DNA of 64,000 nt from Tricholoma matsutake (taxonomy: Eukaryota; Basidiomycota; Agaricomycetes; Agaricales; Tricholomataceae), in the NCBI GenBank assembly GCA_026075535.2, contig AP026548.1:186001-250000 (forward strand), read 5' to 3'. Of this stretch, positions 29,879 to 31,538 are shown piece after piece; position 1 is the first letter of the stretch; each line of letters starts with the position of its first letter. The notes beneath the pieces were generated by a model, which saw only the letters and a program-made list of their open reading frames with translations, made no database searches and was not told the DNA's origin. The position numbers were made by a program, and so were the translations under genes.

Positions 29879-31538
29879 ATGACATGCACCAAGCAGACTG
29901 CTAAGAAAAGCATGGGCACATCTGCACTGAGGCGATCCCTCGGGGGCTGTTTACCAGAAAATTCACTAATGATTACTCACCTTGGTCAACAGCCATCCAT
30001 CCGCATCAAAAAGCAACAAGCGGCAAGGAGGAAGGTGACAAATACTCCACCTCCAACCAATGTGGCCTCAGGCTCAAATCCGCCGGATGCGACTGTAGGG
30101 GTGATTGGAGACTTATCTGGAAATGTATGTCTGTGCTTCACTGCTATCAGCTTCATCGTTTAGTTGTTGCTTATTGATACCAAGTTCTGTTCAATCTGCC
30201 AGAATGGTGGAGACATGAACGTCTGCGACTATTGCCTGTGTGCTGTCTGCAAGAAGTGCATATTGCTCCTGGAAGACATCCTGGAAGACGCTCAATTCAA
30301 ATGCCCACATTGTTTCTCCTTCACTGATGATGGTAGAAGGGCTGCTCCTCAGCCTTATTTAGTACGTTTGTTGTTCTTCAGTTTTAAGAAACTCATCACT
30401 GAGACCCTGTTCAGGGATTGTCATCCTCCAACATACCCCTCGATGTCCCCGCCAAGTGTTCTCAGCGGGAATTTGCCCCAGTCTGTTCAGCAGAGCGCCT
30501 ACTTGTTCTTACAATCAAGCTCAGCTCCATCCCTGATGATGGGCTACCGCCTGTTCTTGTCTATCAGAGTTTGTACCCTTATCTTCCAGGTCTGATCCAG
30601 CACGTTTGCGTGTCGTTTGATTTGTCTACCTCCGATGGCTTGGATGAGTAAAGTGCATCCATTTGCAAAATAGCAAGTAGAATCTCCTCAGGCAATTTAA
30701 AAAGGTGCTCTTGCATATTCTTTGACATGGCTGTTTCTCACCAAGCCTGCAGCTTCTGCCGCTTTGCCATTTTCTTGGTTGATCATACTGACCCGGAGAG
30801 TGGGGATTTACACTTTGCACCAAACAATACAGGTGCTTCTCCTTTTACAGAGGTATGTGTTTGATCAGCTGTCATCTGCCTACACTGATGCCTGTGGTCT
30901 CAGGTCCTCGCCGCCCTTTTCCCTACCACCTTTCTTGAGACCATGGAAACTGGCGCTTAGAATACATTTACTCTCCTTGCATGTGGTGGGTTGTTAAAAT
31001 GCAGGGAGCTGGTGACTGATGTGAAGAGCTTTGCTCAAAGGTTGGTTTATCACCATACTTTTGTGCTATGATTTTACGTTGCAGTGACAGAGGTCCGTTT
31101 TCATGGGTCATGGCTTTTGGACAGATGGATTTCCAACCATCTTCTGCCAACTCTTTCCTCATGGACATCATGCTGTCTTGGCATATTTATGGGCGCTCAC
31201 CTATCTCGGGGATGCTCCAAAATCACCAGGCCCTCGGCAGCCATAGCAATATTTATTTTTTCTACCAAAATGGGCAGGTTGCTTGGGTGACCTGGTCACA
31301 CACAGGTCAGCGCCCCTTTGGCATCCCAATTGACCTGCAATGCATATGCAAGTCCCTCAAATCATACACACCCCACGTTACACTCAATCAAGCAAAAAAT
31401 GACATCTCATCCGTGCGTCTTGTTTGCAAGCATTGCAAACACTCCTTCCAGATACTCAAGCCCGATTGCATTCGAAGGATTAGAAGTGGTGCATGGGCCC
31501 GATCAGACATTGGCGAGTGGTATGTTGAAGATATGTAG
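29879..31538 (+). pseudogene. Histone H3-tail mimic fused to PHD-like zinc finger and C-terminal domain
   Basis: The start ATG at 29879 gives MTCTKQTAKKSMGTSALRRS. This aligns without gaps to the first 20 residues of histone H3: TKQTA is identical and several Lys/Arg/Ser positions are kept. After an intron (about 30124-30162) a cysteine-rich finger follows: FCSICQNGGDMNVCDYCLCA, VCKKCILLLED, FKCPHCF. A second intron (about 30361-30413) leads to SQREFAPVCSAERLLVLTIK and FDLSTSDGLDE. Then come VDHTDPESGDLHFAPNNTGA, FTLLACGGLLKC and, after a 44-bp intron near 31040, FQPSSANSFLMDIMLSWHIY, ending in a CKHCKHSFQ knuckle. A TAG at 30958-30960 and a one-base shift near 30720 break the frame. I know this architecture from other mushrooms as an uncharacterised family. 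The mimic and PHD roles are inferred. Confidence 0.75.

Follow-up and report, generated by a model that had tools for sequence, protein, structure and literature searches.

A gene within a 64,000-nucleotide stretch of the Tricholoma matsutake genome (the window: positions 186001-250000 of contig C11, in an assembly of 161 Mb and 13 contigs) belongs to a mushroom protein family in which a tail resembling residues 1-20 of histone H3 is followed by a variable basic linker (~30-75 residues), a PHD-like zinc finger, a predicted caspase/CHAT (caspase-hemoglobinase) fold and a Cys-rich C-terminus. The order of tail, flexible linker, H3-type finger and caspase fold suggests that a protease is controlled by an internal H3-like ligand. 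Our preferred reading, to which we assign a probability of roughly 0.4, is that these proteins are chromatin-linked caspase-fold cysteine proteases, each controlled by its own H3-like tail, either through the finger or through docking on the protease. The fold is predicted by a structural model; proteolysis, contact between tail and finger, and gating are what we infer. A sequence-only reading of the window had described the gene as an H3-tail mimic fused to a PHD-like finger. Both parts are present, but the C-terminal two thirds of the protein had been overlooked and, since these include the predicted caspase/CHAT domain, the largest of all, the question shifts from mimicry alone to the control of a protease.

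Family membership and architecture

Three protein searches yielded 24 family members (P0001-P0024), a list that may be incomplete, the third search having scored the 7992 candidates that shared most words. Members come from T. matsutake, Amanita rubescens, Lyophyllum shimeji, L. atratum, Tricholomella constricta (whose taxonomic place we assume from general knowledge), Russula dissimulans, Pisolithus marmoratus and metagenome pieces, and thus from the orders Agaricales, Russulales and Boletales. Complete gene models exist in species other than matsutake, and the intact Agaricomycete homologues with an H3-like start that the sequence-only reading had asked for were found in Lyophyllum, Pisolithus and others. 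Nineteen of the 24 proteins were aligned (alignment A3; P0010, P0011, P0017, P0019 and P0024 were left out). No description of an architecture combining an H3-like tail, a finger and a caspase fold was found in the titles and abstract openings searched, in which few subscription journals were covered.

Six further proteins (P0025-P0030), which are histone genes or weak tail-only matches, fall outside the family. Among them, P0026 (192 residues, source lgn) has an H3 tail unchanged to about residue 26, then an acidic stretch and a different Cys cluster, and is possibly another H3-tail fusion; P0030 (737 residues, marine metagenome sources) opens MARTKQTARKSTGGKVPRMQLA and continues as a long protein. 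Neither has a Pfam match.

The H3-like tail

The frame opening at 29879 on the forward strand starts MTCTKQTAKKSMGTSALRRSL. Its ungapped alignment to the H3 N-terminus holds as first proposed, with 12 of 21 residues identical, and a chance match is rejected: none of 20,000 shuffles of the tail's own residues reached 12/21, the best reaching 11. The likeness had in fact been understated, because the copy of the gene on contig C8 begins MARTKQTAKKSTGTSAPRRSL and is identical to H3 at 16 of 21 positions, which makes the window copy a decayed form of a closer match.

Of the 24 family proteins, 17 carry the tail core; in six the N-terminal region is missing (P0001, P0004, P0009, P0010, P0011 and P0019), and one model, P0008, begins within the tail. 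These seven were dropped from the residue count, as were P0017, whose core lies behind a doubtful upstream exon, and P0018, whose tail is that of P0015. Over the resulting 19 rows (15 proteins and four genomic copies, P0005 entering with the two-residue gap that it has in the alignment), the match to H3 ranges from 10 to 18 of 21. Examples are MARTKQTARKATGEPAPRKEL (L. shimeji P0007), MARTKQTARKVTGGKAPRVKL (Pisolithus P0022) and MARTKNTGRKCTGEDAPRKQI (Amanita P0002, with 22 further residues ahead of the tail in its model), and exact ARTKQTARK occurs in Lyophyllum P0007 and four Pisolithus members. Homologues without the H3-like residues were not seen for the family as a whole, the weakest tails being those of the paralogues P0012 (MPPRKKRVDKSTGEPAPRMPL) and P0005 (MTRLSADKATGEPAPRMPL), at 10/21 each.

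Conservation is uneven along the tail. G12, A15 and R17 are kept in 19/19 rows, K9 and P16 in 18/19, and A7, T11 and L20 in 17/19, the most conserved core being TGxxAPRxxL; T3 and K4 (16/19), T6 (15/19), R2 and Q5 (14/19) and A1 (12/19) are kept less often. Poorly kept are S10 (8/19), R8 (7/19; K, D or T in the other 12), K14 (4/19), K18 (3/19), G13 and Q19 (1/19 each). Likeness to H3 ends at residue 20. Among 19 members, core-histone Pfam models gave no match at an E-value of 1 (one member matches the PAF 'histone like' model at chance level, 0.71), and the predicted structure shows no histone fold after the tail, residues 159-371 taking another fold.

Mimicry of H3, as originally suggested, therefore stands in part: the tail is H3-like beyond chance and is kept between Agaricales and Boletales proteins whose caspase-like parts share about 23-26% identity, but Q19 and the modifiable positions S10, K14 and K18 vary. 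Imitation of an H3 tail open to modification is therefore only partly supported. Given also the changes at R8 and the loss of K4 in 3/19 rows, we do not favour the idea that the tail acts generally as a decoy of H3 writers.

The zinc finger

The Cys-rich finger noticed earlier is indeed present behind the tail. Pfam PHD models matched 6 of 19 members at an E-value of 1 (best 0.002), and none of the finger scores shown (13.1-16.9 bits) reached the Pfam cut-off of 24 bits; four members matched the DNMT3 ADD model (best 0.0011). The best matches of known structure were CHD4, AIRE, ZMYND8, PHF21A, ATRX, TRIM66, SP140, TRIM33 and TRIM24, with a second set comprising PHF21A, CHD4, SP140 and ZMYND11, and those of the Amanita finger were CHD4, PHF21A, TRIM66 and AIRE. 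For Pisolithus P0020 the best non-H3 match was NSD3 (0.0033), and lower-ranked matches include ZMYND11, NSD3, KDM5B and CK2 beta. The nearest solved proteins are mostly what we take to be readers of unmodified H3, and the finger resembles, in sequence, a PHD finger of that kind.

It also departs from the type. The position of the PHD histidine is a cysteine in 15 of 15 fingers, at variance with the C4HC3 ligand pattern; 11 of 14 proteins have all eight cysteines, and the last pair is missing from the models P0003, P0022 and P0023. In PHD readers of unmodified H3, acidic residues contact R2 and K4. An Asp after the third Cys, where the R2 contact is expected, occurs in 7 of the 15 finger rows, and the acids expected before the first Cys to contact K4 are mostly absent. 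In all seven rows with the Asp, from three lineages, A1, R2 and K4 of the tail are kept together, against 2/6 of the rows that lack it and have a readable tail. This hints at co-variation of tail and finger, across few independent lineages.

The predicted caspase/CHAT fold

Structure comparison assigns the largest domain of the predicted model to the caspase/CHAT fold. A His/Cys pair is invariant (17/17 rows with letters at these columns), the His following one core strand and the Cys the next, in the strand order of the model. Pfam caspase and CHAT models gave no match at an E-value of 1 in 19 members, and no paper giving the catalytic residues of SAVED-CHAT was found in the literature searched. 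The C-terminus is Cys-rich and perhaps a zinc ribbon. Residues 15-22 are the only part of the tail modelled with a local confidence score (pLDDT) of at least 50. A single-sequence prediction of P0002 (pLDDT 33) was too uncertain to be of use.

Conservation and origin of the tail

Thirteen of the 19 aligned proteins (seven Lyophyllaceae, two Amanita/Russula, four Pisolithus) were compared by group, the pooled pairs not being independent. Identities for tail, linker, finger, caspase part and C-terminus were, respectively, 66, 16, 43, 26 and 20% between Lyophyllaceae and Pisolithus, 61, 23, 47, 23 and 22% between Amanita/Russula and Pisolithus, and 52, 19, 43, 36 and 33% between Lyophyllaceae and Amanita/Russula. 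The tail is thus the best-kept part in all three comparisons. Within the close Amanita-Russula pair the caspase part is kept better (166/197) than the tail (16/21).

Against the H3 gene of the window genome (loci L009 and L010; a third, L007, has another intron layout), the tail agrees at 5/13 third codon positions and 27/39 bases overall, and lacks the intron that interrupts the Gly13 codon of H3. A recent copy of an H3 gene, or gene conversion, is rejected on these grounds, and the likeness has been held at the protein level; the tail may go back to a captured H3 exon or to convergence.

A tree of 16 caspase-part sequences, for which the program warns of long-branch joins, groups Russula with Amanita (91/80, a fork not starred), places T. 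matsutake as sister to both on a long branch (100/100) and sets the Pisolithus rows apart by a very long branch. Because Russula P0003 and Amanita P0002 share those 166 of 197 residues despite belonging to different orders, horizontal transfer may be considered, as a lead only.

The window copy and its gene model

After removal of five GT..AG introns (30125-30163, 30362-30414, 30705-30752, 30853-30903 and 31041-31090), the window copy becomes one continuous frame 473 codons long, a count that takes in the final stop and two internal ones (Table 1). Its lesions had earlier been given as one TAG and one frameshift; there are two in-frame stops, TAA and TAG, and no frameshift, the apparent one having arisen because the changes of frame are introns. 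The last three junctions match the NCBI model P0001 of T. matsutake, the nearest public protein (90% identity across 68% of the query). The first junction, that of a short intron of 39 nt, is uncertain: the 3' splice site at 30163 was chosen because homologues retain the first cysteine pair (FCSIC), which the alternative at 30202 would lose. A Pfam search with the window exons alone gave no family above cut-off.

Table 1. Positions of the gene and its parts in the window
Feature	Position	Strand	Basis
H3-like N-terminal tail, 21 codons, MTCTKQTAKKSMGTSALRRSL	29879..29941	+	alignment to H3, homologues
Exon 1: tail and variable basic linker	29879..30124	+	GT..AG sites, homologues
Exon 2: zinc finger	30164..30361	+	GT..AG sites, homologues
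PHD-like finger, Cys-rich, eight Cys, first to last zinc-ligand position (approximate); CPR changed to CLC in window copy	30188..30313	+	
Exon 3: caspase/CHAT-fold domain (predicted) begins; contains TAA 30649-30651	30415..30704	+	GT..AG sites, homologues
Exon 4: strand leading to conserved His, codon 30784-30786	30753..30852	+	
Exon 5: strand leading to conserved Cys, codon 30982-30984 (LLACGG); contains TAG 30958-30960	30904..31040	+	
Exon 6: end of predicted caspase/CHAT fold and C-terminal Cys-rich, perhaps zinc-ribbon part; stop 31536-31538	31091..31538	+	

Genomic copies and neighbourhood

Searches of the window genome yielded four copies of the gene, on contigs C11 (the window copy), C3, C2 and C8, with DNA 95-97% identical, introns and flanks included. 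They lie ~139-425 kb from contig ends, within duplicated blocks (at least 18 kb in C3, 6.6 kb in C2 and 8.5 kb in C8). All four are broken: besides the two stops on C11, there is one stop on C2, one stop and a 1-nt deletion on C3, and deletions of 1 and 10 nt on C8. Because every copy found is broken, the gene is probably fading in this genome. Under a permissive rule, 106 of the 136 variable columns among the copies are CpG-type changes, which would fit a methylated region. The ratio of non-synonymous to synonymous substitution (dN/dS) among them, 0.36-0.78, hints at constraint before decay.

A compact transposon carrying the gene is not supported, as the blocks have differing ends and element boundaries were not found. 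Elsewhere in the genome, G000:C12:9273114-9273826 matches the gene's upstream region in two pieces, and no part of the gene.

Within the window, an open frame at 43996-44652 (+), about 12 kb from the gene, matches the Tet_JBP oxygenase model (2.9e-05; 23.8 bits, below the Pfam cut-off of 34.9), and one at 38593-39123 (-) weakly matches JmjC (0.062). The frames at 19083-19598 (-) and 33501-34007 (-), without Pfam match, resemble the latter by eye; that at 33501-34007 falls in the block common to all four gene copies. At 53559-55367 (+), matches to RNase H, an integrase zinc-binding domain and SH3_Tf2-1 look like pieces of a Ty3-type retrotransposon. A frame at 7-1068 (+) resembles, on inspection by eye, a C14-type caspase-related protein (ISTACFSG) and has no Pfam match.

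Discussion

We favour control of the putative protease by its own tail. The finger, of the same or a neighbouring molecule, would bind the tail, or the tail would alternatively dock on the protease through its TGxxAPRxxL core, in either case keeping the enzyme off; the tail would compete with histone H3 for the finger, and a real H3 tail, or loss of the tail contact, would release the enzyme. Competition of this sort has a precedent in BAZ2B, where H3 and a histone-like stretch of the protein itself can contend for its PHD finger (PMC5663869), and fungal CHAT proteases fused to sensors are described as acting upstream of gasdermins (PMC10197012, PMC12881547). The predicted model weighs against the simplest version, since it leaves tail residues 1-14 free and trusts residues 15-22 more; the TGxxAPRxxL core might therefore bind the folded part rather than the finger. 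A more specific form, in which the tail is the internal ligand of the protein's own reader of unmodified H3 and free unmodified H3 tails switch proteolysis on, we regard as rather unlikely as it stands; if true, fungi would have a caspase-like effector that senses chromatin, with H3 tails perhaps among its substrates.

The main rival is histone clipping, which we hold to be unlikely: the caspase fold would cut H3 tails and the tail would be a built-in pseudosubstrate or bait, lying near the active site or trimmed in cis to activate the enzyme. The invariant His/Cys pair, the conserved core and the model confidence at residues 15-22 all agree with it, as does the end of H3 likeness at residue 20, close to the clip site at H3 position 21 described for Plasmodium (PMC6446197). 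The S1 pocket and specificity are not readable from the predicted model, however, and the titles and abstract openings found on histone clipping, beyond which no wider search was made, name no caspase-fold clipping enzyme. That the tail is instead a remnant of H3 serving solely as a basic signal for nuclear import or N-terminal stability, with finger and protease doing the work, seems improbable. Tail and linker are basic, and Met removal is expected when the next residue is A, P or T, as it is in 18/19 rows (those with a residue at this column); yet import needs only basic residues, whereas 17-19 of the 19 rows retain T11, G12, A15, P16, R17 and L20, and K14 and K18 are not kept.

Still more improbable, in our view, is mimicry in trans, by which the tail would recruit or soak up H3 writers and readers, for instance shielding the gene's neighbourhood from silencing. 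Exact ARTKQTARK in five members speaks for it, as do the Tet_JBP-like frame and the weak JmjC match in the same window, and transposon-borne TET/JBP genes are described in mushrooms (PMC12730594); but the modifiable S10, K14 and K18 are variable, R8 is replaced in 12/19 rows, and the association with a Tet_JBP-like gene is known from the window genome alone. It is very unlikely that the window copy amounts to mere pseudogene debris, functionless at present, within a region that is methylated and rich in repeats. The lesions in all four copies and the CpG-type changes fit such debris, which is nevertheless silent on the family, with its complete models in other species, and sits poorly with a dN/dS that hints at earlier constraint.

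A direct link from chromatin state to proteolysis becomes testable in a single protein, where tail, reader-like finger and predicted caspase fold come together with a removable tail as built-in control. To our knowledge, known histone mimics are mostly short motifs; here three mushroom orders have retained an H3(1-20)-like stretch at the head of a different protein. With histone H3 itself the family shares residues 1-20 and not the histone fold after them. With the PHD readers of unmodified H3 (CHD4, PHF21A/BHC80, AIRE, TRIM24/33/66, SP140) and the ATRX ADD domain, which are its best solved sequence matches, the finger shares a GG motif and the zinc-ligand spacing, but differs in the Cys that replaces the zinc-binding His and in the scarcity of K4-contacting acids. 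The H3.3-linker-BRD1 fusion (PDB 2l43) has H3, a linker and a PHD-containing piece in the same order as the mushroom proteins, although it was presumably, from its name, man-made for structural work and has no protease domain. BAZ2B likewise joins a histone-like stretch to a PHD finger; its stretches are Lys-rich and lie in linkers (PMC5663869), whereas the mushroom stretch is H3(1-20)-like, stands at the very N-terminus and is followed by a predicted caspase fold. SAVED-CHAT and caspases share that predicted fold, with a His and then a Cys after consecutive core strands (a likeness of order in the predicted model); the mushroom family differs in having no Pfam caspase or CHAT match, and an H3-like tail and finger in place of SAVED, TPR, NLR or WD40 parts. 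Sensor-fused CHAT proteases take part in fungal cell death (PMC10197012, PMC12881547), and a chromatin-sensing version, if true, would widen the range of what CHAT sensors watch.
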